From a virus: 44,189 nt of DNA. The stretch lies in the IMG/VR virus record IMGVR_UViG_3300032579_000032, positions 1 through 44,189 of that record. One strand, given 5' to 3'. Made by a program: the position numbers and the translations under genes. The number at the start of each line of letters is the position of its first letter. Position 1 is the stretch's first letter. The notes beneath the pieces are model-generated. The model ran no database searches. It was not told the DNA's origin and was given only the letters and a program-made list of their open reading frames with translations. Shown one piece after another: positions 9,852-43,820 of this stretch.

Positions 9852-10079
9852 ATGGCAATCGTAGTAACAGAAGAAGAGTTTGTGCAGTGGAGAGATAGTA
9901 GGGCTACAAGAGCGTTTATGTTTGCTCTTAAACAAGATAGAGAATGGTTAAAAGAAATGTTGTTAGCAGGGACTGAAGATGATGCTGGTCTTCGTGGACG
10001 TGCCTCAGCAGTGACTCAAATCATTAACATCACCTATGAAGAGTTAATGGAATCAGTTAAGGAGAACCGTGATGTCTAA
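9852..10079 (+). CDS. Hypothetical virion-region protein (75 aa)
   Basis: A strong ribosome site (AAGGAGG) precedes ATG 9852. The product is mainly helical and charged (EEEFVQWRDSRATRAFMFALK, then a Glu-rich C-terminus). It lies between the portal and the co-chaperonin gene and overlaps the latter's start. The function is unknown; similarly placed small genes in related phages are annotated only as hypothetical. Confidence 0.65.
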   Translation: MAIVVTEEEFVQWRDSRATRAFMFALKQDREWLKEMLLAGTEDDAGLRGRASAVTQIINITYEELMESVKENRDV

Positions 10080-10413
10080 TGTATCAGGAATGACACCAAT
10101 ATTTAACAGGATTCTAATTAAGCCTTTAGAAGTAGAACAGAAAACAGCTAGTGGAATTATTATTTCTACAGCAGAGACAAGCGAAAGAGAACAACTTGCA
10201 AACACCACTGGTGAAGTTATTGCTGTAGGTGAAGAAGTTCCTGAAGGTATTGTTTCAGTTGGTATGAGAGTAGGTTACGCTAAGTTTGCTGGTTTAATGT
10301 ACAAAGGTAAAGATGGATTAGATTATCGCATGATTAATTACGATAACATAGTCTGTATATTAGATGACGATATGAAGTTAATTGATCCGCATTTAATGCA
10401 AGGAAGAAAATAA
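10072..10413 (+). CDS. GroES-like co-chaperonin
   Basis: The 113-residue product starts NVSGMTPIFNRILIKPLEVEQKTASGIII, the N-terminal strand of Cpn10/GroES proteins, followed by a mobile-loop-like stretch (STAETSEREQLANTTGEVIAVG) and GMRVGYAKFAGL, ending with DYRMINYDNIVCIL. Host GroES is about 97 residues, so this is slightly long, as in T4 gp31. It should cap host GroEL and help fold the capsid protein encoded downstream; that role is inferred from known phage co-chaperonins. ATG 10072 is preferred over a GTG at 10069 because GGAG ends eight bases before it. Confidence 0.85.
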   Translation: MSNVSGMTPIFNRILIKPLEVEQKTASGIIISTAETSEREQLANTTGEVIAVGEEVPEGIVSVGMRVGYAKFAGLMYKGKDGLDYRMINYDNIVCILDDDMKLIDPHLMQGRK

Positions 10414-14762: not shown

Positions 14763-14914
14763 TGCAAACTAATCTAGACGCCAAAGAAATTCAACTTGTT
14801 GCCACCATCATTCGTGCTGATGGTAGTAAGGTGGAACTTGGCGTCATAGATTACTTTCATAAGAACCCAATCAAGAGAATTATTTGGAGAATTAAAACAT
14901 GGTTAGCCAAGTAA
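14762..14914 (+). CDS. Conserved small phage protein (50 aa)
   Basis: ATG at 14762 overlaps the upstream stop as TAATG; TAA ends at 14914. The sequence (NLDAKEIQLVATIIRADGSK, then VELGVIDYFHKNPIKRIIW) resembles a family of about 50 residues found in many podophage tail regions (strand, Asp-Gly turn, strand, then HKNP and a basic aromatic tail). The function is unknown. The following HNH gene begins inside its last codons. Confidence 0.6.
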   Translation: MQTNLDAKEIQLVATIIRADGSKVELGVIDYFHKNPIKRIIWRIKTWLAK

Positions 14915-15402
14915 AAATTTGTTCTAGATGTATTATAGAAAAAGATATTACTGGTTTCCATAAAAGGGCTAAGTCTAAAGACGGTTACGCTACAGCGTGT
15001 AAACAATGTATAAAAAAGCTAACTGATTCTTATTATAATAAAAATAAAGAAAAAGTAATTAAACAATCTTTAGAATATTATTATAATAATTTAGATAAAG
15101 CTAAGAAAACACAAAGACTCTGGGATGTAAACAATAAAGGCACTAGAAATGCCATTCGTGCAAAACGACGGGCAACTAAGCTTTTAGCGACCCCTTCCTG
15201 GGCTAATTTAACTGCTATAAGATGTAAATATCAATTAGCTGCTATGTTAAATAAAGAAGGTCTTGAAGCGTGGCATGTAGACCATATTGTACCTTTGCAA
15301 GGTGTAAATGTTTGTGGATTACATGTTGAATATAATTTAAGAGTTATTCCTGCAAAGGAAAACTTATCGAAAGGCAATAAACATGGCTACATTACTAGTT
15401 AA
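14899..15402 (+). CDS. HNH homing endonuclease (167 aa)
   Basis: The N-terminus has a zinc finger (CSRC at residues 8-11 and CKQC near 34-37), then a long basic linker (YYNKNKEKVIKQSLEYYYNN). The C-terminus holds the HNH core AWHVDHIVPLQGVNVCGLHV and NLRVIPAKENLSKGNK. Such enzymes nick or cut DNA and spread their own gene. The start overlaps the 50-residue gene by 16 bases, and the end overlaps the next tail gene by 20. It is more AT-rich than its neighbours, which fits insertion as a mobile gene. Confidence 0.85.
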   Translation: MVSQVKICSRCIIEKDITGFHKRAKSKDGYATACKQCIKKLTDSYYNKNKEKVIKQSLEYYYNNLDKAKKTQRLWDVNNKGTRNAIRAKRRATKLLATPSWANLTAIRCKYQLAAMLNKEGLEAWHVDHIVPLQGVNVCGLHVEYNLRVIPAKENLSKGNKHGYITS

Positions 15403-19566: not shown

Positions 19567-19854
19567 ATGTCATACACACCTAGTTATCTAAGAGGGGATT
19601 GGAAAGCTCTTTGTGATGTTTGTGGAAGACAAGTTAAAGCTTCTGAGCTTAGGCAACGTTGGGACGGTTTTAAAGTCGATGACCGTTGTTGGGAGCCTAG
19701 ACAGCCCCAAGATTTTGTAAGAGGCGTAGCAGATTATCAAGCTCCTCCTTTTACTAGACCTGAGCCAGAATGGATTTTTATTGAAATACTACCTCAAAAC
19801 GACAATTTAAAAGTTGTCAATGGGTATGAATTTAACACACAACTTTTAGGATAA
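19567..19854 (+). CDS. Zinc-finger-like conserved tail-region protein (95 aa)
   Basis: The N-terminal part reads GDWKALCDVCGRQVKASELR, followed by RWDGFKVDDRCWEPRQPQDF. This is a family widespread next to phage tail genes. Members usually have two Cys pairs; here the third Cys is replaced by Asp (DDRC in place of CxxC), which could weaken or alter metal binding. The C-terminal half is Pro-rich (DYQAPPFTRPEPEW). The function is unknown; a minor virion or assembly role is likely from context. Confidence 0.6.
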   Translation: MSYTPSYLRGDWKALCDVCGRQVKASELRQRWDGFKVDDRCWEPRQPQDFVRGVADYQAPPFTRPEPEWIFIEILPQNDNLKVVNGYEFNTQLLG

Positions 19855-24145: not shown

Positions 24146-24598
24146 ATGATCACATATCAGGAAGAAAAGTATTCAGAAGTAATACCTGAATTAGCTTTAA
24201 TATACCCTGAACATTACGAAGAATTAGAAAGTTTTGTAAGCGGTGGTTATGCTCTTGATTTAGATTGGGATCAATATAAGAATTTAGATAATGCTGGTTT
24301 AATTCAGCTTATTACATGTAGAAAAGATAAAGAATTAATTGGATATATTCTTTATATTGTATCTAGGCATTTACATGTTAAATCATGTTTAACTGCTTAC
24401 GAAGATATTTACTTTTTACGTAAACAACATAGAAAAGGTAGGACAGGTATAAAAATGTTTCAGTTCGCTGAACAACATCTTAAAAACCTAAGTGTTAATA
24501 AAATCCTGTGTTCAACAAAAGTACATCAAGATAACTCTAAGTTATTTGAATACCTTGGATACAGTTTCATAGAAAAGCTATTTGCTAAATATATTTAA
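24146..24598 (+). CDS. GNAT-like acetyltransferase (150 aa)
   Basis: The layout is that of a small GNAT fold: GLIQLITCRKDKELIGYILYIVSRHLH is the central sheet, then YEDIYFLRKQHRKGRTGIKM, where RKGRTG is a candidate acetyl-CoA loop, and a C-terminal DNSKLFEYLGYSFIEKLF. Phages with P22-like tails often carry such a protein next to the DNA-ejection genes. Its target is unknown; a host protein or a virion protein are both possible. It lies between the tail hub gene and an internal-protein gene. Confidence 0.65.
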   Translation: MITYQEEKYSEVIPELALIYPEHYEELESFVSGGYALDLDWDQYKNLDNAGLIQLITCRKDKELIGYILYIVSRHLHVKSCLTAYEDIYFLRKQHRKGRTGIKMFQFAEQHLKNLSVNKILCSTKVHQDNSKLFEYLGYSFIEKLFAKYI

Positions 24599-27027: not shown

Positions 27028-28749
27028 ATGGCATACGCTAGTCTTTCTGAAGCAGTAAAAAGCAGTGCATTTTCTACGCTGTCTCCTGAAGCTAAACAAG
27101 TTGTTTTTGATAAATATTCAAAAGATGATTCAGCTTACGGTGGTTTATCTGCCGAAGCTAAACAACATGTACAAGAAACTTATTTAGGTAAAAAAGAAGA
27201 ACAAGCACAGACTGAAAAAAGTATGGTTAATAAAGGTGCTGAGGCTGTTTTTGGGGAAGGCCCTAAAGCAACTATGGACCCTATGGAACGTATTAAACGT
27301 GTTGGTGAAGCTGGTGTTGCTGGTATGGGGGCTGGTGGTATTATTGGAGGCGGTGTAGGTGCTTTAGCAGGTGGTGTGGGAGCAGTGCCTGGAGCAGCCA
27401 CAGGAGCAGTTATTGGAGGTGTTGGTGGTGTATTAGGTGAAATAGCTGAACAAGCAACATCTGCGTTAGGAGGAGGCCGTTTATTGCAAGTAATGAGTGG
27501 TTTAGTAGGAAGTGCTCCTGCAGAAGCAGTGTCTAAAGCTATTCCTTCAATGATTGAGCATTTACTTCCTTCTAAAGCTAAATACGCATTAAGTTTATTA
27601 CAAAACCCTGAAACAAGAGCTGCTGCAGAAACTGCTAAATTAACAGCAGGGCAAGAAAAACAATTTGGTCCTAAAACTCCTGGATATACAGCAGGACAAG
27701 ATTTAGGTGAAAATGCCGCAGAGACACAAGCACGGCTACAAAAAGAACACAAGTTTGGCGAGGCTCGTTCTTACGCACCTTCAGGAAAAACTACTGAAGA
27801 AGCTGTAAAACCTAGTACTGCATTAGCTACAGGTAAAGAAGATTTAAATGTTCCAGGTAATGTAAAACGTGCTCAAGGATATACTGAAAAGTTAGAGCCT
27901 ACAGGAATTAGAGAAGTTAAAATTAATCCTAAAACTGGACAACCACAAAAAGTATCAGAAGTATTGCGTAATGAAATGTATGACGAAGTCGGCAATGTTA
28001 CTGTTAAAAGCCCAGCACAACGCTTTTCTTCTAGTGATCAATTCAAAACTTTATCAGCTAAACTTGATGAACACGTTGCTGAGGGAACAATTAGTAAAGC
28101 AGATAAAAATCATCTTCTTACTATTTTAAAATCAGATGAAGGTTCTATAGGCTCTCAACAACGTTATGGTCAAACTGTAGATAATCAAATTCGTAGCTGG
28201 GCTGGTAAGCCTGGTGCTGAAGGTAAAGGAGCACTTACGCAACAACAACGTAATGTTGTTCGTAATGATCTTAGAGATAACTTTGCTGAGTGGACAGATA
28301 AACAAGGATTTGGTAAAATAGAAAAAGATTACCGTTCTGCCTTTACTCAAGAAAAGATTGCTGAAGCTAAAGATTACATTCCAAGAATGTTATCTGAATA
28401 TGATGGTAAAGCAGAAGCTACACAATTTGCTCGTCAAATGGTTAATGAAATGCCTGAAACTAAACAAATAGTTAAATCAGAAATTAAAAAGTATTTTGCT
28501 AATTTAGACCCAAAAGATATTCCATCTAATTTAAAACGTATTGATAAATTATTAGTTAACACAGAAATATTTAAACCTGAAGAACTTAATTATTTACGAC
28601 AACAAGTATCTGATGTTGAAAAAGGGGGAGACCCTGTAGCTATTGGTACACGCATTAAACGAATGATTAATACACAACTTAAAGTTGGCCTTCCTACTCA
28701 AGTTGTTCGTTCTGCAGTAGTAGGACAATCTACAGATAAAAAAGAATAA
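27028..28749 (+). CDS. Putative internal virion (DNA-ejection) protein with glycine-zipper segment (573 aa)
   Basis: The N-terminus repeats a short motif (SSAFSTLSPEAKQVVFDKYS, then YGGLSAEAKQHVQETYLG), seen at the start of ejection proteins. Residues about 95-150 form a long Gly/Ala/Val run (GAGGIIGGGVGALAGGVGAV), a glycine-zipper-type membrane segment. The rest is charged and helical. Such proteins enter the host envelope and help DNA pass the membranes. The gene lies immediately before the ATP-grasp gene, whose ATG follows its stop. Confidence 0.65.
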   Translation: MAYASLSEAVKSSAFSTLSPEAKQVVFDKYSKDDSAYGGLSAEAKQHVQETYLGKKEEQAQTEKSMVNKGAEAVFGEGPKATMDPMERIKRVGEAGVAGMGAGGIIGGGVGALAGGVGAVPGAATGAVIGGVGGVLGEIAEQATSALGGGRLLQVMSGLVGSAPAEAVSKAIPSMIEHLLPSKAKYALSLLQNPETRAAAETAKLTAGQEKQFGPKTPGYTAGQDLGENAAETQARLQKEHKFGEARSYAPSGKTTEEAVKPSTALATGKEDLNVPGNVKRAQGYTEKLEPTGIREVKINPKTGQPQKVSEVLRNEMYDEVGNVTVKSPAQRFSSSDQFKTLSAKLDEHVAEGTISKADKNHLLTILKSDEGSIGSQQRYGQTVDNQIRSWAGKPGAEGKGALTQQQRNVVRNDLRDNFAEWTDKQGFGKIEKDYRSAFTQEKIAEAKDYIPRMLSEYDGKAEATQFARQMVNEMPETKQIVKSEIKKYFANLDPKDIPSNLKRIDKLLVNTEIFKPEELNYLRQQVSDVEKGGDPVAIGTRIKRMINTQLKVGLPTQVVRSAVVGQSTDKKE

Positions 28750-30087
28750 ATGAAAATATTAATTATTGACCCATCAGGGTGTGGTTGTGGCTTATCCTTT
28801 GGTCTTCGTAGCATGGAAGCAGGCCATGAAGTAAAGCTGTTCCTTAGACACAATAAAGATGGCTCTCGTCCTGAAGCAGGTGACGGTGGTTTAATCAAGC
28901 GAGTTAGTGCTTGGGAAGATCATATGAACTGGGCTGATTTAATCTTTGTTACAGATAACATTTACTACATTCATTCTTTAGAGCGTTATCGTGATCAAGG
29001 CTATCCTATCTTTGGTGCAAACTTAGAAGGAACTAAGTGGGAACAAGCTCGTGACTATGGTGAAAGTATTCTTAACAAAGCAGGTGTAGAAACTATTCCT
29101 AGTCAAACATTTACTAACTATGACGATGCTATTGCTTATGTCAAAGAAAACCCTAACCGTTTTGTGTCTAAGCCTATTGGTGACGGTGATAAGACTTTAT
29201 CCTATGTAGCTAAGTCTGCTGCTGATATGCTTTACATGCTTGGCTACTGGAAGAAAAAGAACTCCTTTAAAGGTAAGTTTATTCTACAAGAGTTTCGCCC
29301 AGGTATTGAGTTTGGTGTTGGTGGTTGGTTTGGTGCTGGTGGTTTTTCTAAGAACTTTTGTGAGTCTTGGGAACATAAAAAACTAATGGATGGTGAGCTT
29401 GGTGTCACTACTGGTGAGCAAGGTACTATTGTCCGTTACACACAAGATTCTAAACTAGCTGATCAGATGTTAAAGCCATTAGAAGGTATGCTTCATGGCA
29501 TTGGTTATACAGGCTACATTGACGTTAACTGTATTGTAGATAAGAAAGGCAAAGCATGGCCTTTAGAGTTTACTACTCGTCCTGGTTGGCCTTTATTTAA
29601 CATTCAAATGTCTTTGCACAAAGGTGATCCTGCTCAGTGGATGCTTGACATGATTGATGGTAAAGACACTTTAAAAGTATCAGATAAGATTGCTTGTGGT
29701 GTTGTAGTTACTATTCCTGATTATCCTTATAGTCGTTTAACTAAGAAAGAAAACTCTGGTTATCCTATATGGGGTTTGACAATGGAAGACGCTGTCAACG
29801 ATGTGCATCTTTGTGAAGTTCAGTGGGGTAAAGGTCCTGCAATGGTTGATGGAGACCTTAAAGAAAATGTACCTATGTTTGTTACTGCTGGTGATTATGT
29901 ATGTACTGTTGTAGGCTTAGGCGATAGTATTGAAAAGTCTCGTGAAGCTGTTTACGGTAAGATTAAAAAGAAGATTGAGATTCCTAACTCTATTGCTTAT
30001 CGTACTGACATTGGTGAAAAAGTACAAAAGTGTTTAGATGATTTACAAGGCTGTGGCTATGCTCAAGGAGTAGAAAGTGGCAAGTAA
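28750..30087 (+). CDS. PurD-like ATP-grasp ligase (phosphoribosylamine-glycine ligase family)
   Basis: The 445-residue length and domain order match PurD: an N-terminal alpha/beta domain (MKILIIDPSG), an ATP-grasp part with FVSKPIGDGDKTL (K141) and ILQEFRPGIEFGV (E181), a metal-binding YIDVN...WPLEFTTR (D258, E273, R277), and a C-terminal GLGDSIEKSREAVYGKIKK with YRTDIG (residues 418-423), close to PurD's YRRDIG. But PurD's EFN.RFGDPETQ is replaced by EFTTRPGWPLFNIQ, so the phosphoribosylamine site has changed. It probably joins a carboxylate to an amine using ATP, with a substrate other than PurD's. It sits between ejection and fibre/lysis genes, not with nucleotide genes. Confidence 0.75.
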   Translation: MKILIIDPSGCGCGLSFGLRSMEAGHEVKLFLRHNKDGSRPEAGDGGLIKRVSAWEDHMNWADLIFVTDNIYYIHSLERYRDQGYPIFGANLEGTKWEQARDYGESILNKAGVETIPSQTFTNYDDAIAYVKENPNRFVSKPIGDGDKTLSYVAKSAADMLYMLGYWKKKNSFKGKFILQEFRPGIEFGVGGWFGAGGFSKNFCESWEHKKLMDGELGVTTGEQGTIVRYTQDSKLADQMLKPLEGMLHGIGYTGYIDVNCIVDKKGKAWPLEFTTRPGWPLFNIQMSLHKGDPAQWMLDMIDGKDTLKVSDKIACGVVVTIPDYPYSRLTKKENSGYPIWGLTMEDAVNDVHLCEVQWGKGPAMVDGDLKENVPMFVTAGDYVCTVVGLGDSIEKSREAVYGKIKKKIEIPNSIAYRTDIGEKVQKCLDDLQGCGYAQGVESGK

Positions 30088-30499
30088 TTTATTACCCCCA
30101 ATTCCTCAGACTGAAATAGGTGAAAACTTTCCTTGGAGAACTTGGTTTAATAACATAGGGACTTACATACAACAGACTCAAACAGGTAAGAATGTTTTAT
30201 CCATTATTCAAGGTGGTACAGGAGCGTCCTCGGCTGCAGGTGCTAGAGCTAACTTAGGTCTCGGTAGTATGTCTCAAGAGAGCTCTAACAACGTAGCAAT
30301 CACTGGCGGTACTATTACAGGAGTTGCTATTACAGGGGTTTCTATTCCTTATACTGATGTAACAGGACTAGGAACAATGGCTACACAAAACGTAGGCATT
30401 ACTCATACTATTACTACTGCTAAGTTAACACCTACAGGTGCTAATGGTAACATGGTATTTACTAACGGTATATTAACTGCACAGACACAGGCAACATGA
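30077..30499 (+). CDS. Short tail-fibre or spike-like protein (140 aa, GTG start)
   Basis: AAGGAG (30065-30070) precedes GTG 30077, which decides the start; the gene begins inside the end of the ATP-grasp gene. After an N-terminal PIPQTEIGENFPWRTWFNNIGTYI comes a fibre-type unit, SIIQGGTGASSAAGARANLG, and Thr/Gly strands. The product is probably a fibre, or a shaft without the receptor tip. It ends four bases into the lysozyme gene. Confidence 0.6.
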   Translation: MASNLLPPIPQTEIGENFPWRTWFNNIGTYIQQTQTGKNVLSIIQGGTGASSAAGARANLGLGSMSQESSNNVAITGGTITGVAITGVSIPYTDVTGLGTMATQNVGITHTITTAKLTPTGANGNMVFTNGILTAQTQAT

Positions 30500-32257: not shown

Positions 32258-34159
32258 TTATTTAACGGGACATGCACCACTACTACATTCTAAATCACCT
32301 TCAAAGGAAGCATCTTCCACTTTGGTAATCAATCTTGTACTAGCAACTAACGCATCGTAAGCTTCTTTAGTAATTTCTTCAAGAGGAGCTTGTTTAAAAC
32401 CATGTTCATTATGAAGTAAGAACGATAAAGATTTATGATTGTTTTTGTAGTTCTTAGCCAAGTACTTCTTAATCTCTGGTAACTCTTCCTTACGATAATA
32501 CACAGTACAGCTTACGCTATTATCTGACCAGTTATCTTGCAACCATTTAACTGTTTCTAGTTGGTCAATAGCTGTCATTTCTGAAGCAATTTTAGTGCCT
32601 GCAGGATAAGCAAATGGGAACGAAACAACCATTGTACTGTAGTCATCTGTACCATCAAAGTTACGTTGGTATTCTACAGGATACCCATGATCACGACATA
32701 CTTGAACTAAGCTATGGTCTGCAGCAATACGGATACGTCTAATCATATAATGACTATAAGCAGGGTGGCATCCTGAAGTTACACCTGGTAACAAAGACAA
32801 TGTACCTGAAGGTTTAACCGTTGTTAGCTTAATAGATTCAGGGAAACCATGCAAAGCAGAGTATTCTTTATCAAAGGCACGTAAGTCTACATAAGCTTCT
32901 TTTAACCAAGAACGTTGCTCGTCAGAAGCTTGCAGAACACCAGTAACCCCAATACCCATACGCATGTTCTTGTGAACGATGTCGGCTGTTTCCTGCAAAT
33001 GACAAGGCAAAGCAAGGCTATGCTTGTTAATACGATATAAAAGTTTACAGATGTCAACGAATTGCTCCTTAGATTCTACGTTAGATAAATAAACTTCTGC
33101 TAAACAGCAAGTTTCATAAGCTGCCAAAGATTGTTCAGCACAAGGGTTATATCCCATAACATCAGGATCAGGATAGTTAGTGTCACCAAGCCTACCAATC
33201 TTCCTACTAAGGCGTAAGTTAATAAGACCGTAAGGCTCTCCTTTTCCTTCGTATCCGTCCCAAAAATATTCATGCAAATCTTTAATATCGTTACACACAA
33301 CGCTATTATTAGACATGGCCCTCCAACTAGGAATATTACCCATATCCCAACGTTTAGCAAGAAGGTATTCGACATCGTCTGCATCTCCAATGGCAATCTG
33401 TGCTGATCTTCGTACATTACCTGCTACGACAATTGCACCAATAATGTTCATAATATCTAAGCAATCAATAGGACGTAGCTTTTTACCAGCCCTTTTAGAT
33501 AAGATAGTACTTACCTTAACTATGCCTTCACAAAGGTCTTCAGGGCCTGATGCAGTGCCTCCAAAGCCCTTAATAACAGCCCCACGACCACGTACAAGAA
33601 CAGTGCTATAGCTAAACGTGTTGTTTTTATCACTTAGGAACGCTGCCTTAAGCGTTTTGCCCAGTAGCTGTACCCAACCCTCCCTCGAATCAGGGACAAT
33701 AAAATCCGCATCATTGCTATCCACACGAGTAGGGGCACTAAAATTAATATTGACTTCAGGAAGTTTTTCAACGTTTTTCTTTTGTATGTTATAACCTACG
33801 CCTGAGCCTAACATCAATAGGTCCATAGCCCAAGTAAAGGGACGAACAGGCTCATCAATTACAGTAAAGGCACAGTTTTGTAATGAAGCTAATCCTAGCT
33901 TGTTTACAGTGTCTGTTCCTAATTGCCAAAGAAAACGGCCTGCTACTGTTCCCTTTAACTCTGTTAAATACTTACGCAAACGGTCTTGTTCTGCTTCTGT
34001 AAAGTTACAACCTAATTGTTCATTTGTTGCTTTTACTACTCTTTCTACTGTCTGTGGGAACTCTTCTGTTTTACTAGTAATGTCTGCTTCGTCTAAACGA
34101 CGTGCATAAGTTCTTTTATAGGTGATATAACCTACTGTGCTAAATGGTGTTGTGTACAT
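32258..34159 (-). CDS. Class II (adenosylcobalamin-dependent) ribonucleotide reductase, monomeric type
   Basis: The product (633 aa) reduces ribonucleotides to deoxyribonucleotides for phage DNA synthesis. The key residues of the Lactobacillus leichmannii enzyme are all present: redox Cys C96 (LQNCAF) and C351 (ETCC), radical Cys C340 and Glu E342 in NPCAEQ, and the tail pair C625/C630 (CSSGAC). The C340 to C351 spacing equals that of C408 to C419 in the model enzyme. At 633 residues it is about 100 shorter than that enzyme. No small subunit is needed, and none is encoded. It needs vitamin B12 coenzyme from the host or surroundings. Confidence 0.88.
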   Translation of the reverse strand: MYTTPFSTVGYITYKRTYARRLDEADITSKTEEFPQTVERVVKATNEQLGCNFTEAEQDRLRKYLTELKGTVAGRFLWQLGTDTVNKLGLASLQNCAFTVIDEPVRPFTWAMDLLMLGSGVGYNIQKKNVEKLPEVNINFSAPTRVDSNDADFIVPDSREGWVQLLGKTLKAAFLSDKNNTFSYSTVLVRGRGAVIKGFGGTASGPEDLCEGIVKVSTILSKRAGKKLRPIDCLDIMNIIGAIVVAGNVRRSAQIAIGDADDVEYLLAKRWDMGNIPSWRAMSNNSVVCNDIKDLHEYFWDGYEGKGEPYGLINLRLSRKIGRLGDTNYPDPDVMGYNPCAEQSLAAYETCCLAEVYLSNVESKEQFVDICKLLYRINKHSLALPCHLQETADIVHKNMRMGIGVTGVLQASDEQRSWLKEAYVDLRAFDKEYSALHGFPESIKLTTVKPSGTLSLLPGVTSGCHPAYSHYMIRRIRIAADHSLVQVCRDHGYPVEYQRNFDGTDDYSTMVVSFPFAYPAGTKIASEMTAIDQLETVKWLQDNWSDNSVSCTVYYRKEELPEIKKYLAKNYKNNHKSLSFLLHNEHGFKQAPLEEITKEAYDALVASTRLITKVEDASFEGDLECSSGACPVK

Positions 34160-34167
34160 CTTTATCC

Positions 34168-34401
34168 TTAGTGTCGTGTATTTTTCTTGTATTTTTCTGC
34201 CATCATTGCATCTGCCATTGCATATGAAAAATGTGCAATTACTTCACAATACTCATCTACATTAGTTTCTGGTACTCCTGCTGCAGAGATTGCTCCTGAT
34301 AATACTGAAGTAGCAAAGAAATCTCTTAAATTAGCAATAGCAGTTGATTCTAAATACTCTATTCTTTGTTCAATGGTTTGTTTTTTATCTTCTAGTTTCA
34401 T
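34168..34401 (-). CDS. Hypothetical protein (77 aa)
   Basis: A helical, mostly acidic product (MKLEDKKQTIEQRIEYLEST, then ISAAGVPETNVDEYCEVIAHFSYAMADAMMAEK). Its start overlaps the HNH gene's stop as ATGA, and its end lies eight bases before the reductase start. The function is unknown; the context suggests the nucleotide module. Confidence 0.6.
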   Translation of the reverse strand: MKLEDKKQTIEQRIEYLESTAIANLRDFFATSVLSGAISAAGVPETNVDEYCEVIAHFSYAMADAMMAEKYKKNTRH

Positions 34402-34910
34402 GCTCTTCCTTGAAATTTTTCTAAAATACTACGAGCGAAAGAAAGTAATTGTTGTTTATTAGCTCCTTGTTTCATTGTATTTGCTAAGTAAGAAATAACT
34501 TCAATATTTCCTTTTATGTATCCTTTAGAAGAATCTATACGGTCAACTGAAGGGTTTGTCCACACTACGCCTTTACCATGTATTTTAGTAATAGGTGTTT
34601 TTAAATAAGGACAAACATCAGGTATAATTATATCACATACTTCTATGTTAAATTCAAATTCTTTTTGAATTGCTCTCCTTTTAACACTATTAAATAAATA
34701 TTTTTCCCAGTCTTTTAAACGATTGTCTATTACTTTTTGTTTAGAATTTTGTGAATCTCTACACTTTTTTGTAATTTCTTTTCTTTTTTCTGGGTTATCT
34801 TTAGCCCACTTTGCTGCTTTATCTTTATATTTTTGTTTATTTTCTACATATTGTTGCTTTGCTTTTTGTAAAATAATTTCTTTATGCGCTTCGTAATAAT
34901 CAGGAGTCAT
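34398..34910 (-). CDS. HNH-type homing endonuclease (170 aa)
   Basis: The long basic N-terminal helix region (KAKQQYVENKQKYKDKAAKW) is followed by a nuclease core: CPYLKTPITKIHGKGVVWTN, then PSVDRIDSSKGYIKGNIEVI and SYLANTMKQG. The SxDRI...KGY..N pattern is that of an HNH/endonuclease VII-like subfamily, shared with the gene at 43251-43820. Its start overlaps the 56-residue gene by 11 bases and its stop overlaps the next gene by four, so insertion left the neighbours intact. Base use is AT-rich. Confidence 0.75.
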   Translation of the reverse strand: MTPDYYEAHKEIILQKAKQQYVENKQKYKDKAAKWAKDNPEKRKEITKKCRDSQNSKQKVIDNRLKDWEKYLFNSVKRRAIQKEFEFNIEVCDIIIPDVCPYLKTPITKIHGKGVVWTNPSVDRIDSSKGYIKGNIEVISYLANTMKQGANKQQLLSFARSILEKFQGRA

Positions 34911-35443: not shown

Positions 35444-36180
35444 TATGCAAGCCCTTTCACTTCTACAGATGCTTTAAGAGACTTTGTTCCTTGACTCCAA
35501 GTGCCACAATCTTTGCACTGATAACGCTGATACGTTGAGGTAGTGGTAACTGCCTGTCCACGCTTCTGTAACTTAGTAGAAGAACAAGTTGGACAAACAT
35601 GCCCATCAGCATACAGATTATAATTAGGATGATGTTTAATCCAAGGAAGAATACGATGGTATACATTCTCAAGCAGAGTGACATCTTGCTTATTATACTT
35701 TTCCATAATCTTCCAAGAAGCTACATCGCCTGCCATACACTTAGTCCACAATTCCATACCTGCATGAGCCGTCTTTTTACCTAGTCCTAGACGCTGAGCA
35801 ACGTAGTCCAATTTGTTAGAAGGAAAACGAAACTGGCTGCGAGCAACACGCAAAAGATCAATTTGTTTATAAGGTGATGGTGGAGTAAAACTATGTAAAA
35901 GGAATTCCTTGTTAAGAGTAGGAATGTCAAACTTAGTACCATTATAATGAACGACTGCGTCTGCATCATTGAGGAGGTCATAGATACCCTTTAGCATCTT
36001 TTTAGGTGTAGAGTTATGGACAGAATCAAACATAATTTCTTTACCGTCAAGCCACTTAGCAGCCCAACAAAGAATTTCTGATGAATCAATAATATGATTA
36101 GGGTTAATGTTTTGTTCCCAAATCCCCCAAACATATGCTGTCATAGGGCTTGTTTCAATATCAAGAAGAAGAATCTTCAT
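35443..36180 (-). CDS. DnaQ-like 3'-5' exonuclease with C-terminal zinc ribbon
   Basis: The 245-residue product starts MKILLLDIETSPMTAYVWGI, with D7 and E9 of the ExoI motif; VVHYNGTKFDIPTLN (ExoII) and KYNKQDVTLLENVY (ExoIII) follow. It fits the RNase H-like (YprB-type) exonuclease family. The C-terminus adds a zinc ribbon (CPTC...CKDC near residues 197-223). It degrades DNA or RNA from 3' ends; the ribbon may aid binding. It is separate from the proofreading domain in the polymerase. It overlaps the next gene by four bases. Confidence 0.8.
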   Translation of the reverse strand: MKILLLDIETSPMTAYVWGIWEQNINPNHIIDSSEILCWAAKWLDGKEIMFDSVHNSTPKKMLKGIYDLLNDADAVVHYNGTKFDIPTLNKEFLLHSFTPPSPYKQIDLLRVARSQFRFPSNKLDYVAQRLGLGKKTAHAGMELWTKCMAGDVASWKIMEKYNKQDVTLLENVYHRILPWIKHHPNYNLYADGHVCPTCSSTKLQKRGQAVTTTSTYQRYQCKDCGTWSQGTKSLKASVEVKGLA

Positions 36181-36503
36181 TTCTTTTTACCTTTCTTAGG
36201 TACTGGAAAAGGAATATCTTCTTTATCAGCTTTAGCTTCTAAAGTACGAAGTAGTGTTAAACGTGCTTCTTTTACTTCATCACTAGCATGTTCATTAAGC
36301 TCAAACACTTGACAAAAAGTATCCATTAACTTAGAACAGTTTAATTCAATAGCATATTCAATAGCCATGATGTGATTATGCTCTTCATCTTCTGACATCA
36401 ATTCAGGATGATCGTACATTCTCCAACGTAATGTTTGTACCTGGTCTTTAATGGCCCAAACATTCATAATGGCATTCTCTAAATCAAATCTATTCTTTTT
36501 CAT
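36177..36503 (-). CDS. Hypothetical protein (108 aa)
   Basis: A helical product (ENAIMNVWAIKDQVQTLRWR, then HPELMSEDEEHNHIMAIEYAIELNCSKLMDTF) with a very basic end (KKGKKK). Similar helical proteins lie in the replication modules of T7-like phages, with no known role. It overlaps the nuclease gene by 14 bases and the exonuclease gene by four. Confidence 0.6.
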   Translation of the reverse strand: MKKNRFDLENAIMNVWAIKDQVQTLRWRMYDHPELMSEDEEHNHIMAIEYAIELNCSKLMDTFCQVFELNEHASDEVKEARLTLLRTLEAKADKEDIPFPVPKKGKKK

Positions 36504-36837
36504 TTGCTTTCCTAACTAGTTCTACAAAATGTTCTAAATCTACAATTGCTAATGGTTTACTTCTATTTTGTTTTACTACCACTAACGGCTCTGCATCACC
36601 ATGCGTCATTGCTTGCTCATAAAACTTATATACTGCTACCTTTGCTAAATTCTTACATTCAATTCCATAAGGAAAGGCTTTTAAACCAGCCTCGGATAGT
36701 TGCACGTCTTCGCCTTGCGCCCCCATCGATGTGCTTTTCACGTCTCGTTCCGTCAGCGTCGGAAAAGAGCGAAGTATCGAGTCCCTTACCGTTTGTTGCA
36801 ACAGTCGGCCTTTTTGCTTTGCTGAACTGGTTTTCAT
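36490..36837 (-). CDS. PD-(D/E)XK-type endonuclease (115 aa)
   Basis: The pattern GRLLQQTVRDSILRSFPTL, ERDVKSTSMGAQGEDVQLS, then FPYGIECKNLAKVAVYKFYE matches a small phage nuclease family with a D...ExK core (D50, E72, K74), possibly a junction resolvase like T7 gp3. The C-terminal strand and helix (AEPLVVVKQNRSKPLAIVDL) complete the fold. ATG 36837 lies far inside the upstream metallopeptidase gene, so the first 60 codons share DNA with it in another frame. The conserved N-terminus supports this start. Confidence 0.75.
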   Translation of the reverse strand: MKTSSAKQKGRLLQQTVRDSILRSFPTLTERDVKSTSMGAQGEDVQLSEAGLKAFPYGIECKNLAKVAVYKFYEQAMTHGDAEPLVVVKQNRSKPLAIVDLEHFVELVRKANEKE

Positions 36838-37342
36838 CTTTCCACCCTATCGGAACAGGCTCAACAGGTGTATCAGGGTTGACTGTACCTTCGAAGACAT
36901 TCCAGAGAGATTCTTTTTTAGAGAAGTTATTCCAAAGTCCTGCTTCTCTGCCATAAGCTTCGATTTCCCAAGGCAGTTCGAAATAGTCCATTGCATCACT
37001 GTCGATGGGTTCACCTTGCCACTGCGTCTGCTCTTCATTTAATTCCTCATGTACATACTGTTTAACATGCACAAATTCATGTGCAAGAGTTTTTAATATT
37101 GCTTTACCTGAAATATAAGGATGTAATTCAATTAAGAATTCCCTTGCCTTTTTCTTACTGTTTCTTTTTTCAACACTAGTGTATCCATAAGCATCCAAAT
37201 GCTTGTTAAACTTAACAGTAACAACAATGTGTCTAAGGAGTTTCTTAGGGAATAACTGTTCAGCATAAAACTGAGAAGCTCGTTGAACATATTCGTTAAA
37301 CCTTTCGTCAGGGTGTCCGTGGTTATTTAGAAGTACAATCAT
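36659..37342 (-). CDS. SprT-like zinc metallopeptidase (227 aa)
   Basis: A HExxH motif (HEFVH, H88-E89-H92) lies in TLAHEFVHVKQYVHEE, followed by PWEIEAYGRE (E126), the expected third-ligand region of SprT-like proteases. ATG 37342 overlaps the exonuclease stop as ATGA and is preferred to a GTG 15 bases upstream. The C-terminal part (after about residue 165) is basic and low in structure (GARRRRATIRG) and shares 179 bases with the nuclease gene in another frame. It may clear proteins from DNA, as Spartan proteins do; that is inference. Confidence 0.7.
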   Translation of the reverse strand: MIVLLNNHGHPDERFNEYVQRASQFYAEQLFPKKLLRHIVVTVKFNKHLDAYGYTSVEKRNSKKKAREFLIELHPYISGKAILKTLAHEFVHVKQYVHEELNEEQTQWQGEPIDSDAMDYFELPWEIEAYGREAGLWNNFSKKESLWNVFEGTVNPDTPVEPVPIGWKDENQFSKAKRPTVATNGKGLDTSLFSDADGTRREKHIDGGARRRRATIRGWFKSLSLWN

Positions 37343-38019
37343 CTTGGGGATTCCCACATTTCATTTGCTGTCCGTCGCAAGTGGAGCAATCTACAGTTTT
37401 CAATGACTCTGTCTTCTGCACCATCGTAAGCTTCGACACAAGCAAGATACATTTCTGTTGCACTTTCACGTCCTGCGAGCCTTTGTTTAGCCTTAACAGG
37501 GCCGATGCCTTTGAGACCAATGATGTTATCAACTCTGTCACCTGTAAGTACCTGTAAGTAAAAGTTAAGAAGTGCTTCTGCTTCGTTTACTACTGTCATT
37601 TCTTTTTTAACAAAATTCCAATGATTTCCTGGAAGCTGTAAAAAATCTTTATCAATACTAGCAATTATACTTTCATAATTTCTAGCAGTGTGTTCTATCG
37701 CAATTGAATCATCTGCTTCTTGCCCTACAGAGATTGTAGCACCCCAGGCTGAAACAAGATAATTTCGGAGGGTCTGCAAATGTTTAGGTTTAGGTGAAGT
37801 GCGGTTACCTTTATAGGGCGCAGTTATTGCAATGTCGTTTCTAAAGTTTTCTTTTCCTGTCAAATAACATTGGTAGGTTTCAACATTTTCTAAATCTTCC
37901 CACAACATTGATTCAATAAAATAAGCACAACGTGAGATAGCAATTTTTTCATTTTCTTCCTCGGTTGAGCAGGCTATACGATAACAGATAATGTCAGAAT
38001 CTACCAATACGTGCATCAT
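37339..38019 (-). CDS. 5'-3' exonuclease (FEN/PIN type, T7 gp6-like)
   Basis: The 226-residue product starts MMHVLVDSDIICYRIA (first metal-binding Asp), carries QEADDSIAIEHTAR and SIDKDFLQLPG (middle acidic cluster), and ends with GDRVDNIIGLKGIGPVKAKQRLAG, a helix-hairpin-helix (H3TH) of flap endonucleases. Such enzymes remove RNA primers and degrade host DNA in T7-like phages. Two ATG codons in a row are at its start. It is followed by the metallopeptidase with a four-base overlap. Confidence 0.85.
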   Translation of the reverse strand: MMHVLVDSDIICYRIACSTEEENEKIAISRCAYFIESMLWEDLENVETYQCYLTGKENFRNDIAITAPYKGNRTSPKPKHLQTLRNYLVSAWGATISVGQEADDSIAIEHTARNYESIIASIDKDFLQLPGNHWNFVKKEMTVVNEAEALLNFYLQVLTGDRVDNIIGLKGIGPVKAKQRLAGRESATEMYLACVEAYDGAEDRVIENCRLLHLRRTANEMWESPR

Positions 38020-38058
38020 AAACTTTCTAAATGAGGAGCCGAAGCTCCTCTGTTATTG

Positions 38059-38484
38059 TTACAGTACGTCGTCCATTAGTTCGTCGTCTTTAGCACCTTT
38101 GTACTCAACCAGATTAGTGATTGTAAGTTTCTTCAACGAAGGGCTAACACCTTTTTTACCACGATAATCCCACTCATAAGAAGAGACAATTGCTGTGCAT
38201 TTACTGCCGTTAGCAATCTTCTTAGAAGCTGGTACTTGCTCACCATCTTGATCAAATGCTTCAATTTTATAATTACTTTTACAAGTAATATAATTACCTT
38301 CAGCTTCACGCTTTTCAGGATTATTTAATACTTTGATGCCTAATTCTTTTAAGGCTGCTACTGCTTTGTCTGATAGATTAGACAAGTTAATTGTGTACTG
38401 TTCTTTATCCGATGATGGATTAGGAGTCTGTGTACAAGCCCAAAAAATGTCTGCCTGTACTGCGATTGATTTACCTGTACTCAT
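38059..38484 (-). CDS. Single-stranded DNA-binding protein (T7 gp2.5-like)
   Basis: The 141-residue product has a beta-rich core (YITCKSNYKIEAFDQDGEQV, GSKCTAIVSSYEWDYRGKKG, SLKKLTITNLVEYKGA) and an acidic tail (KDDELMDDVL), the hallmark of T7 gp2.5-type proteins, whose tail contacts the polymerase and helicase. It lies between exonuclease and DNA polymerase genes, as expected in such modules. A GAGGAATC ribosome site precedes ATG 38484. Confidence 0.75.
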   Translation of the reverse strand: MSTGKSIAVQADIFWACTQTPNPSSDKEQYTINLSNLSDKAVAALKELGIKVLNNPEKREAEGNYITCKSNYKIEAFDQDGEQVPASKKIANGSKCTAIVSSYEWDYRGKKGVSPSLKKLTITNLVEYKGAKDDELMDDVL

Positions 38485-38528
38485 AATGTTGATTCCTCTT
38501 AATTTAGTTAAATTTATACTGCATAGCT

Positions 38529-38537
38529 ATTATACCA
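38529..38537 (-). promoter_or_regulatory. Possible extended -10 promoter before the SSB gene
   Basis: The minus strand reads TGGTATAAT in the 57-base gap between the polymerase and SSB genes. No good -35 lies 17 bases upstream. The TGTGGTATA core resembles half of the 18-bp control-region repeat. Confidence 0.3.
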
Positions 38538-38541
38538 CAAC

Positions 38542-40194
38542 TTAGTGACTACCTGCCCAGTTTTCTGCAACACCATACTCAGCCCCTACTGGACAACGGA
38601 ACTGTAGTATTTCTCCTGCTTCTTTGGCAGAGTGAACAACCACTTCACCTATTATACTACCATATTGCTTAGGGCACTCTATTTGAACTTCATCGTGGAC
38701 CCAAGCTACTAGCTTATATGGTATGCCTTTAGTACGCAAGTTTTTTTCTATTTGAACAAGCCATTGTTTTGCAATGATGGCGGCTGCACTTTGTAAAAGC
38801 GTGTTAAGCGACGAATGAGCCGACCTGACCGTAAGTGAATAACCGCCAATCCCTGATATCCTTCCTTTTTCAGAAATACGTTCAACTTTGGCTTTAAGCC
38901 TTTGGTAAGACGGAACTGCTTTACAGAAGTTATCGATAATTTTGGCTCCTTCTTTTGGAGTAGAACCAATAACCGAACCGATCTTGGAAGGAGAGGCTCC
39001 GTACAAAGTCGCATAAAGGACAGTTTTCGCAAGGTCTCTCGTTTCAACCCCAAAAGCTTGCTGATTTCTAGTGTGGACATCACCGTAGACTGTTTCATTT
39101 ATATATTCCTGGTCATTAAGGTAATGAGCAAAGCATCGAAGCTCAATACCGCTAAGATCGACACCCACCAATACGTTTCCGCTTTCAACAGTCCAGCAGG
39201 ACCTAAACTCTGTTCCCAACACCGCCCTAGTTGAAGGGATTTGTGCCATATTAACGCTAGAATGAGTAGCTCTGCCAGTAACAGCACCAAAACCAATAAC
39301 TTTACCATGTACTCTCCCATCTTCTTTTACATGTTCTAACCAAGAATCTAACTGCGAAGCTCTTTTTTGTAGCATTAAATACTTTGCTATTGGTTTAGCC
39401 TCTGCAATTGATACTTCACTAAGTATAGTTTCATCGACAATAATTTGCCCTTTTTCCGTCGTCTTGGTAGGCTTCCAACCCTTGGAGATAAGCCGTTTTG
39501 CAATTTGCTGACGGGACCCCACATTAAATACTTCCACGTCGTCCTTGAGCCTCTTACCAGTTTTCTCCGATACACGCTCAGTCGTAATCGGTGGAAAGAT
39601 AGTCTGTAAGGCTTCTTCAATCTCTGCCATTTCTGTCTTAATCTCACAGAGCATCGTCTGTGCATAGGGTATGTCAAGCTTGAATCCATTACGTTCCATC
39701 CTTGATAAGATAACCTGTACTTCATACTCCAGCTTTACAGCTTGTTCTTGTATATTAAACTTTTGTAATTCTTGAATAAGAATGTCATATACCTTAGCCG
39801 TTAACTCTACGTCACGAATACAGTACGTCACCATTTCTTCGGTAAGGCCACCATCATAATCAGAAAAGTTTATCTTCTCAAATCCTAGAGTCTTCCCCCA
39901 AGAATCTAAAGAGTGACCACCATCACGAGCAGAATTACAAAGGCGAGAAAGTAACAAAGTATCTCCACATTGTGTCCCCTTGATTGTTGTTTTCCATACC
40001 CTATTAAGAATAGGAGCATCAAAGGCAATAAGATTGTGTCCCACGATGGTATCAAATTCATTTAAATATTCCTTTAGCCCTTCTGCTGAACGCCATACAA
40101 TTAAGTCTTTCTTTTGGATGTCAAGAGTCACGCAGCACCAAATTGTATCGTGTGCTAAGTTAGTCTCAATATCCAAAATTAAAGTCTTTTTCAT
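38542..40194 (-). CDS. DNA polymerase, family A (T7 gp5-like)
   Basis: The product is 550 residues from ATG 40194, which overlaps the upstream stop as ATGA. The N-terminal 3'-5' exonuclease has LILDIETN, VGHNLIAFDAPIL and YCIRDVELTAKVY. The polymerase part has motif A VGVDLSGIELRCFAHY, motif B RDLAKTVLYATLYGA and motif C AWVHDEVQIE. The Tyr in KTVLYATLYG matches T7 Y526, the residue linked to weak discrimination against dideoxynucleotides. At 550 residues it is shorter than T7 gp5 (704). It copies the genome with the primase-helicase. Confidence 0.92.
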   Translation of the reverse strand: MKKTLILDIETNLAHDTIWCCVTLDIQKKDLIVWRSAEGLKEYLNEFDTIVGHNLIAFDAPILNRVWKTTIKGTQCGDTLLLSRLCNSARDGGHSLDSWGKTLGFEKINFSDYDGGLTEEMVTYCIRDVELTAKVYDILIQELQKFNIQEQAVKLEYEVQVILSRMERNGFKLDIPYAQTMLCEIKTEMAEIEEALQTIFPPITTERVSEKTGKRLKDDVEVFNVGSRQQIAKRLISKGWKPTKTTEKGQIIVDETILSEVSIAEAKPIAKYLMLQKRASQLDSWLEHVKEDGRVHGKVIGFGAVTGRATHSSVNMAQIPSTRAVLGTEFRSCWTVESGNVLVGVDLSGIELRCFAHYLNDQEYINETVYGDVHTRNQQAFGVETRDLAKTVLYATLYGASPSKIGSVIGSTPKEGAKIIDNFCKAVPSYQRLKAKVERISEKGRISGIGGYSLTVRSAHSSLNTLLQSAAAIIAKQWLVQIEKNLRTKGIPYKLVAWVHDEVQIECPKQYGSIIGEVVVHSAKEAGEILQFRCPVGAEYGVAENWAGSH

Positions 40195-41692: not shown

Positions 41693-43281
41693 AATGCTTC
41701 CTCCATTTCCAACATACGGCCTGTGTCTTTATTGTAAAGCAAACTAGCACAATGCGGAGAAGTTAAACCACTAAAACGATTCTTGAGAATACTAACTCGT
41801 GTCGTGTTACGCTCAATAGGGTCTTCATGTTGTGCGTTACGGACCAAACCAATAACAATATCGGATAACTGAGCAATACTCGCAGAGCCTCTAAGTTGTG
41901 AAAGACTTGTTGCAGCCCCTTCCTCGTGACCTTTACTTTCTGGACGCTTCAGGTGCGATACTGCAATTAAACACACCCCAGTTTCTTGTACCAACATACG
42001 CAATTTAGTCATCAACTCATCAATTGCTTTTCTCTCATCTCCATTAGACTGTGATGAAATAATCATAGAAATATGATCTAAGAAAATGTATTTACAATCT
42101 GAAGCTTTTGCAAAGTAACGAATACGGTTAATCACATTATCAATATCAGTAGAGCCAAAGTTATCCCACAAGTAAATCCTATCTGTTCCCATTGTTGCAT
42201 CAAAGGATTGTTTCAACTCTTCAGGGCTAACGAGTGTATCAGGTAAGTGTAATGGCTTATTCAAGTGTAGCGACATAATGCTTCGTGCTGTTTTTCGTAC
42301 TGACTCTTCCATAAACATTAAGCCAATATTGGAATCGGTAGTCTGAATCAAGTGCCATAGAATCTCACGCAAGAACTGTGACTTACCTAATCCTGACCCT
42401 GCACAAACCGTAATCAACTCCGCAGGTCTAATGCCATAAGTTAAATCATTAACACCAGCCCAAGGATATAAAGCAGAAGACTTTTCTACAGGTTTATTAA
42501 CTTCTTCCCATAAAGTAGAGCCTGCAATAATGCCATCAGGTGTCCATTGTTCTGCTGACCACCATTGCTTAACATAGTCTGCTCCTTTTCCTACTGCAAG
42601 GTAGTCACAAGCATCTTTATAGCCTGAAATATGCTTAACAATCTTACATTTATTACCTAATATCTCAGCAACTTCATTCGCAGCCTTGCGTCCAGGCTCA
42701 TCAGCATCAAAGGAAATATAGATACTCTCAAATGAAGATAACCACTCATAGTTCGCTTTAACGTCCTTTAAGGCAGCTTGTGCGCCATTGCGTACAGAGA
42801 CATTGGCGTACTTCGATCCTGCCATCTGAAAGCCTGCTAACGCATCTAATTCGCCTTCATGAATAGTGACTGTCTTACCGCCTTTAGCAAACAACTGCTG
42901 ACCAAATAATGTTGTGTCTTTCCATTGGCCTGTGATACCAAACATCTTGCCCTCAACAATACGATTCTTAGTGGCAACAACTACGCCATCATCGTTTGCG
43001 TAAGGGTAGTATTGTGTTGTAGCGTCTTGCGTAACACCGTAGTGCTGACAAGTATCGCGAGTAATACCTCTCTCGCTGATTGACTTTACTTCTCCCTTAA
43101 TTTCTAACATGTTTTGCTTTCTTGTTGGTGCAACATAACTTTCTGTTCCATCGCCTTTAATATATGTTTGACATCCGTAACAATACTGATGCCCGTCTGT
43201 AAAAAGAGCATTAGCATCCGAACTTCTACATTTATCGCAGGGAAGGTGCTTTATGAATTGTGATTCACTACTGCTTTGCAT
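41689..43281 (-). CDS. DNA primase-helicase (T7 gp4-like)
   Basis: The 530-residue product joins primase and replicative helicase. It has an N-terminal zinc motif (C15, C18, C34, C37 in CDKC...CYGC), a TOPRIM domain (HEGELDALAGFQ near 130-142; SFDADEPGRKAA near 188-200), and a RecA-like helicase with Walker A GSGLGKSQF, Walker B IFLDHISMI and a later LRGSASIAQLSD. It unwinds DNA and lays down primers for the polymerase. ATG 43281 lies 31 bases inside the upstream HNH gene. Confidence 0.92.
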   Translation of the reverse strand: MQSSSESQFIKHLPCDKCRSSDANALFTDGHQYCYGCQTYIKGDGTESYVAPTRKQNMLEIKGEVKSISERGITRDTCQHYGVTQDATTQYYPYANDDGVVVATKNRIVEGKMFGITGQWKDTTLFGQQLFAKGGKTVTIHEGELDALAGFQMAGSKYANVSVRNGAQAALKDVKANYEWLSSFESIYISFDADEPGRKAANEVAEILGNKCKIVKHISGYKDACDYLAVGKGADYVKQWWSAEQWTPDGIIAGSTLWEEVNKPVEKSSALYPWAGVNDLTYGIRPAELITVCAGSGLGKSQFLREILWHLIQTTDSNIGLMFMEESVRKTARSIMSLHLNKPLHLPDTLVSPEELKQSFDATMGTDRIYLWDNFGSTDIDNVINRIRYFAKASDCKYIFLDHISMIISSQSNGDERKAIDELMTKLRMLVQETGVCLIAVSHLKRPESKGHEEGAATSLSQLRGSASIAQLSDIVIGLVRNAQHEDPIERNTTRVSILKNRFSGLTSPHCASLLYNKDTGRMLEMEEAL

Positions 43282-43820
43282 AGTTCTAATACCTCTCTAT
43301 CTGTATATCTTTGTTTTGCCATGTTATACCACCAACAAACAACTTGTATATTATTTTTTGTATAACCTTTTGTTGGGTTTATTTTGTCAATACTAGGAGT
43401 TCTTGCATTTCTATTAGAATAATCACTTCCTTTATTTACTAATTCAAATTTAAGACCTGTTTTAGCACAAACATCTTTTAAAAGTATCTCATGTATATAT
43501 TCACTGGTTAAGTCAAAATCTATATTATGTTTCTCAGCTCTTTGTTTACAAGCATGATAAAGATTGTAAGCAGTTCTATAAGAAGGATAGCAAGCATCAC
43601 AAAGATTTTTTGTTCTTTTCGCAGAACCTGCTTTTACTTTCCAATTACAACCACATTGCTCGCATACTTTATGAACTCTACTTTTTCTTTCTTCTCTTCC
43701 TTTAGCTGCTCGACATTGTTTACAGTATGGAACATAAATCATGTTTCCTGCTTTTGATTTAGACATACCAAACAAACTAACATCTTTACTTTCATTACAT
43801 TTTTTACAACTCTTTTCCAT
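43251..43820 (-). CDS. HNH-type homing endonuclease with zinc fingers (189 aa)
   Basis: Two Cys-rich segments (CKKC...CKQC, residues 5-36, and CEQC...CDAC, about 53-77) precede a nuclease core (CAKTGLKFELV, then TPSIDKINPTKGYTKNNIQV and CWWYNMAKQR). The SIDKI...KGY..NN signature matches the gene at 34398-34910. A consensus promoter and an AAGGAG ribosome site lie directly before it, so it is the first gene of the replication operon. The primase starts within its last 31 bases. Confidence 0.8.
   Translation of the reverse strand: MEKSCKKCNESKDVSLFGMSKSKAGNMIYVPYCKQCRAAKGREERKSRVHKVCEQCGCNWKVKAGSAKRTKNLCDACYPSYRTAYNLYHACKQRAEKHNIDFDLTSEYIHEILLKDVCAKTGLKFELVNKGSDYSNRNARTPSIDKINPTKGYTKNNIQVVCWWYNMAKQRYTDREVLELCKAVVNHNS

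Follow-up and report, generated by a model that had tools for sequence, protein, structure and literature searches.

The locus described here raises the question whether a viral gene that ordinary annotation would label purD, or phosphoribosylamine-glycine ligase, has anything to do with purine synthesis. The gene lies in IMG/VR virus record IMGVR_UViG_3300032579_000032, positions 1 to 44,189 of which were analysed and are referred to as the window. The label invites a reading as a phage purine boost, of the kind argued for purD and GART in catalogues of viral auxiliary genes.

Results

Identification of the ligase gene

An open reading frame on the plus strand at positions 28750–30087, beginning with ATG and encoding 445 aa, was identified as the gene of an ATP-grasp ligase with a PurD fold by its domain matches and predicted structure. 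The protein matched Pfam GARS_A at 27.6 bits (cut-off 27) and GARS_C at 30 bits (cut-off 34.8), and it was classed as an ATP-grasp ligase on the GARS_A score and on the invariance of K141 and E273. NCBIfam model TIGR00877 (purD) matched with an E value of 8e-24 and 84.1 bits against an equivalog cut-off of 288; it was the sole NCBIfam family matched, and this by all 37 members scanned. Six relatives scored 48–84 bits with this model, and 13 of 14 control genomes passed the cut-off. Significant sequence matches of the window protein were to solved PurDs only, and the identity between phage proteins and PurD was 21.7% on average with a maximum of 25.8%. A scan of PHROGs gave no match for the window protein and weak matches only for its relatives, while BacD/YwfE was matched with an E value of about 1 and a lower fold score.

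Predicted fold

The AlphaFold2 model of the ligase, ligand-free and built on 36 aligned sequences, had a pLDDT of 93.8 and a pTM of 0.92. A fold search (VIA) placed all 13 solved GARS entries on top, with Z scores of 31.8–35.1 over 378–396 aligned residues at 17–23% identity, followed by PurK (Z 24.6) and PurT (Z 23.6), and the Foldseek ranking agreed on the PurD fold. As the N, A, B and C domains of the GARS fold were all represented at full length, the protein is predicted to be a complete GAR synthetase (PurD) fold. A search of the viral models in BFVD returned no PurD-like viral protein (TMq ≤0.45 among the matches listed), an absence that is not proof. The initial annotation, made from the sequence alone, had assigned the whole PurD layout including a C-terminal YRTDIG; GARS_A, GARS_C, TIGR00877 and the whole-length fold match bear this out.

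Residues of the active site

A QM/MM study of A. aeolicus (Aquifex) PurD, according to which a structure with bound phosphoribosylamine (PRA) is not known, assigned K103, K143, E185, E192 and K214 to ATP, D212, R287 and E292 to glycine, and E100 and K214 to Mg (PMC8880213). These residues were transferred to the ligase through alignments. The ATP residues correspond, in the same order, to R101, K141 (29170–29172, plus strand), Q180, E187 and K210, and the glycine contacts to E208, R277 and L282, so that only R277 is kept out of three; E208-H209-K210 occupies 29371–29379 on the plus strand. The Mg-site E100 is E98 in the ligase. K141, E187, K210, E98 and E273 are invariant in 36 of 36 phage proteins. 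K141, E187, K210 and E98, together with the likewise invariant R277, are the same as in PurD, whereas at R101, Q180, E208 and T275 (for N285) the phages do not vary among themselves and differ from PurD; D290→W280 and E292→L282 are nearly fixed. The C-terminal YRTDIG is present, with R418 and D420 unchanged throughout the phage family and PurD.

At the position of EFNxRFGDPExQ in PurD the ligase reads EFTTRPGWPLFNIQ (E273–Q286, 29566–29607, plus strand), a changed donor-pocket/Mg motif that keeps E273 and R277 and carries the replacements N285→T275, D290→W280 and E292→L282. The loss of the FGDPETQ segment, on which the initial annotation had been built, was confirmed across the family: the signature R-[LF]-G-D-P-E-x-[EQIM], the PROSITE pattern of PurD, was present in all 29 bacterial PurDs and in none of 36 phage homologues. 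In deep relatives the segment is RFG[WYNV]P, and what stays constant is N→T together with the loss of D-P-E; the PGWP form is derived, with Pro for Phe a later change. Of the two features for which a search of phage homologues had been suggested, the place of the gene proved conserved and the changed motif fixed in the family, its PGWP form excepted.

The PGWP change had been placed at the phosphoribosylamine site. This did not hold, since the equivalents R287 and E292 bind glycine in A. aeolicus PurD (PMC8880213), and by this one published model the motif seems to mark a rebuilt donor (glycine) pocket next to the Mg site. That the PRA site is unlikely to be intact stands on another observation: the N-terminal GGREH loop (GxGGREHA), which in PurD would be expected to hold the PRA phosphate, was found in 28 of 29 PurDs and in 0 of 144 phage proteins, and its loss disfavours phosphoribosylamine as a substrate. 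In its place the ligase has a loop of residues 7–16 (28768–28797, plus strand) with an invariant D7, and D69-N70 (28954–28959, plus strand) stands for P-E of the PurD GPE motif, D69 being invariant and N70 present in 35 of 36 proteins. The residues invariant in the phage family alone, D7, H26, D69, W193, E205, T226, S234, D258, I285 and W297, are what would be expected of an enzyme of new specificity and not of a decaying PurD. The idea that D258 is a regained metal ligand was dropped because the strand register is ambiguous.

Gene neighbourhood

The ligase gene directly follows the last ejection-type gene by position, an open reading frame of 573 aa (27028–28749, plus strand) whose stop codon TAA at 28747–28749 abuts the ATG at 28750. 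In relatives the upstream gene is large and very variable, and it overlaps the ligase gene by 4 nt in 119 of the 142 that have an upstream reading frame in reach. When more than 60 distinct upstream reading frames were compared, their C-termini had in common only what follows from the ATGA overlap; a ligation target at the end of this protein was rejected, as these termini are not conserved and no peptide target stands out. Downstream, as the initial annotation had it, follow a fibre-like gene (30077–30499, plus strand), which overlaps the ligase gene by 11 nt, and the lysis genes, namely a phage lysozyme (30496–30945, plus strand), a holin-like gene and a weak Rz-like match. A pattern scan found no terminator-like site on the plus strand after 25959, and the total for the region was no more than chance.

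In 101 of 144 cases the ligase is followed by the fibre-like gene; deep members have other genes there, such as one for a small zinc-ribbon-like protein. The fibre-like gene and its relatives combine a fixed LPPIPQ...WRDWF start with a highly variable remainder, from 56 to more than 900 aa in length, and resemble an anchor with exchangeable tips. The zinc-ribbon-like protein is encoded in the tail block of the window (19567–19854, plus strand) and directly behind the ligase in the deep relatives (loci L083, L091, L092 and L099), where it has the motifs CxxC, HWxGxxVC and EPRxPQDFVR. An HNH-like endonuclease gene (14899–15402, plus strand) has relatives at different places, as a mobile gene would, and in L012 and L016 one stands directly after the ejection-type gene and ahead of the ligase; the upstream reading frame of L016 is 182 aa. 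Elsewhere in the window, a GroES-like co-chaperonin gene (10069–10413, plus strand) lies in the head block two genes past a portal-like protein and is also present in MW202796 and Alcaligenes phage QDWS535, and two endonuclease VII-like genes (34398–34910 and 43251–43820, both on the minus strand) both match phrog_3322.

The statement that the ligase is not with nucleotide genes is true of its own strand only, as a ribonucleotide reductase gene is located 2.2 kb beyond on the opposite strand. This gene (32258–34159, minus strand) is 95% identical in L034, 86% in the ligase-less L271 and about 28% in L070, the polymerase genes beside it being about 70–82% identical to those of the window in L034 and L070, and it has been swapped among relatives. 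Among 20 carrier records no PurN was found and no PurF over the cut-off. A glutamine-amidotransferase domain probably accounts for the single weak PurF match (record G132), which adjoins an Amidoligase_2 match.

Eight sister phages (L210, L211, L219, L242, L262, L264, L271 and L310) share the replication block, the reductase and the late layout and are without the ligase; a GNAT acetyltransferase of the late block (24146–24598, plus strand) also occurs in ligase-less sister phages. When loci were anchored on the DNA polymerase exonuclease subunit, 13 had the ligase and 19 had room for it and lacked it; anchoring on the head-closure gene gave 13 with and 1 without. The ligase is therefore a clade-fixed addition that is not needed by every such phage, and an essential role in particles of this kind was rejected because sister phages of the same layout do without.

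Distribution, phylogeny and selection

Scanned three times, with the protein or with alignments as queries, IMG/VR yielded 85, 227 and 503 matching stretches, and the family comprises about 500 sequences there, in podovirus-like phages. A single scan covering bacterial and archaeal genomes returned only locus L083, which is a 6.9 kb contig in an Armatimonadetes bin and shows the gene order of the phages. No phage-type gene besides this phage-like contig was found in 101 sampled cellular genomes (Armatimonadetes); the phage profile gave 651 bits for the contig, and the ordinary PurDs of these genomes scored no higher than 58. The same bin contains a full-score PurD, and compensation for a host without PurD was rejected for this reason. 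In the annotated collection the only related phage record was MW202796.1, in which the gene is 67% identical and unannotated; the other matches there were ordinary PurDs, annotated so where annotated, and most likely lie on bacterial contigs, judging by score and source. A host search of the window yielded no tRNA and no host-linked contig. A weak hint is that, among the cultured phages found, Alcaligenes phage QDWS535 is nearest by its terminase (54%).

In a tree built from 36 phage and 29 PurD sequences the two groups separated cleanly, with support of 100/100 and a very long branch. By its sequence the ligase is not a PurD and belongs to a separate family. With dN/dS values of about 0.02–0.16 the gene is being maintained: genuine and intact, it is subject to strong purifying selection, and these values together with some 500 homologues put the observation far beyond chance.

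Discussion

Proposed function

From these data we infer the catalysis, the time of expression and the class of substrate of the ligase. The preferred reading, to which a probability of about 60% is given, is that of a carboxylate-amine ligase of the ATP-grasp type, specific to viruses, which is expressed late and acts on new substrates. By homology with PurD, K141, E187, K210, E98 and E273 would bind ATP and Mg2+. A carboxylate held by R277 and E208 would be phosphorylated by ATP. The rebuilt N-terminal domain, with its invariant D7, H26 and D69, would hold an amine, which would then attack the acyl-phosphate to give an amide. The lost contacts suggest a donor other than glycine and an acceptor other than phosphoribosylamine. 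As the gene stands directly behind the last ejection-type gene in the late block, the product would probably be used at particle assembly or lysis. The residues peculiar to the family and the low dN/dS argue for a working enzyme; E185→Q180, K103→R101 and N285→T275 alter residues on the ATP/Mg side, and catalysis may be weak or lost.

Since the ligase is constantly linked to the last ejection-type gene, the first guess for the target is a late phage (virion) protein, at somewhat less than an even chance, and the ligase-less sister phages indicate that particle assembly in general needs no ligase. More speculatively, a purine ligase turned virus-only could modify a virion or ejected protein by attaching an acid to it, which might be a bulky amino acid; if true, this would be a modification not known from podoviruses.

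The main rival to a late phage protein as target is synthesis of a small molecule by the ligase, or its action on the host envelope or cell wall to bring about lysis or keep out other phages. Enzymes of the PurD type act on small molecules, lysozyme and holin-like genes are near, and a role in cell-wall modification has been suggested for phage amidoligase clusters (PMC10580990, citing Iyer 2009); yet in deep members the downstream gene differs and the ejection-type gene upstream stays constant, and no other envelope enzyme was seen travelling with the ligase, so that this role is possible but on the unlikely side. It is improbable that the protein is a catalytically dead PurD fold serving as a particle or assembly protein, which would suit the late-cluster place, the close coupling with the ejection-type gene and the loss of the Mg-side Asn, because the ATP-site Lys, Glu and Arg are invariant down to about 40% identity and a purely structural role would not need them. 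Least tenable is a divergent but working PurD that as an auxiliary gene speeds purine supply for phage DNA: the full-length PurD fold, TIGR00877 as the one NCBIfam family of all 37 members and the viral purD/GART auxiliary genes of snow and ocean viruses (PMC11097641, PMC11360552), which may or may not belong to the phage ligase family, are set against 84 bits where the cut-off is 288, a signature missing from all 36 homologues, changes in two of three glycine contacts and in the GGREH loop, the absence of PurF and PurN beside the ligase in 20 records and the ordinary PurD of the bacterial bin that holds one relative.

A virus-specific carboxylate-amine ligase preserves from the initial interpretation an ATP-grasp ligase of PurD shape for which GAR synthesis is very unlikely, and departs from it in the assignment of the pocket. 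The family shows how a purD label can mislead, and its members are not to be taken for purine genes. Its product, if found, would be a new phage-made amide bond, for which the residue map gives direct tests.

Comparison with known systems

Clusters of ligase genes that include ATP-grasp and amidoligase members have been described in phages (PMC3890496, PMC10580990), in UFV-P2 within the early region. The LUZ24-like clusters, also early-region ones, and that of Alcaligenes phage QDWS535 (L095, OK172329.1), where ATP-grasp, GATase, amidoligase and COOH-NH2 ligase genes occupy 35678–40026 in the early region and the PurD-like ligase is absent, likewise hold phage carboxylate-amine ligases, but apparently of other ATP-grasp branches. 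An Amidoligase_2 query matched in 5 of 32 phage records, including 2 of 19 ligase carriers, and gave no match in the window, nor in the control genomes of the same search. The ligase as a stand-in for the QDWS535 amidoligase cluster was rejected, as 2 of 19 carriers have both and most non-carriers lack the amidoligase.

The L-amino acid ligase BacD/YwfE is an ATP-grasp dipeptide ligase with weak similarity in sequence and fold, for which no shared specificity motif was shown. PurK and PurT share the ATP-grasp core and the domain order (Z about 23–25) and are clearly more distant than PurD. With PurD/GAR synthetase (TIGR00877; PDB 2yw2, 2qk4 and 1gso) the phage ligase has in common the fold including the GARS C domain, the ATP-site Lys and Glu, the equivalent of R287 and the C-terminal RxDIG. 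It differs by an identity of about 22%, by the lack of the RFGDPE signature and the GGREH loop, by D→E and E→L in the glycine pocket and N→T next to Mg, and by a late virion/lysis gene place where purine genes were not found. The phage branch thus combines the PurD architecture with a changed donor pocket and acceptor loop, in a gene set among those for the particle and lysis.
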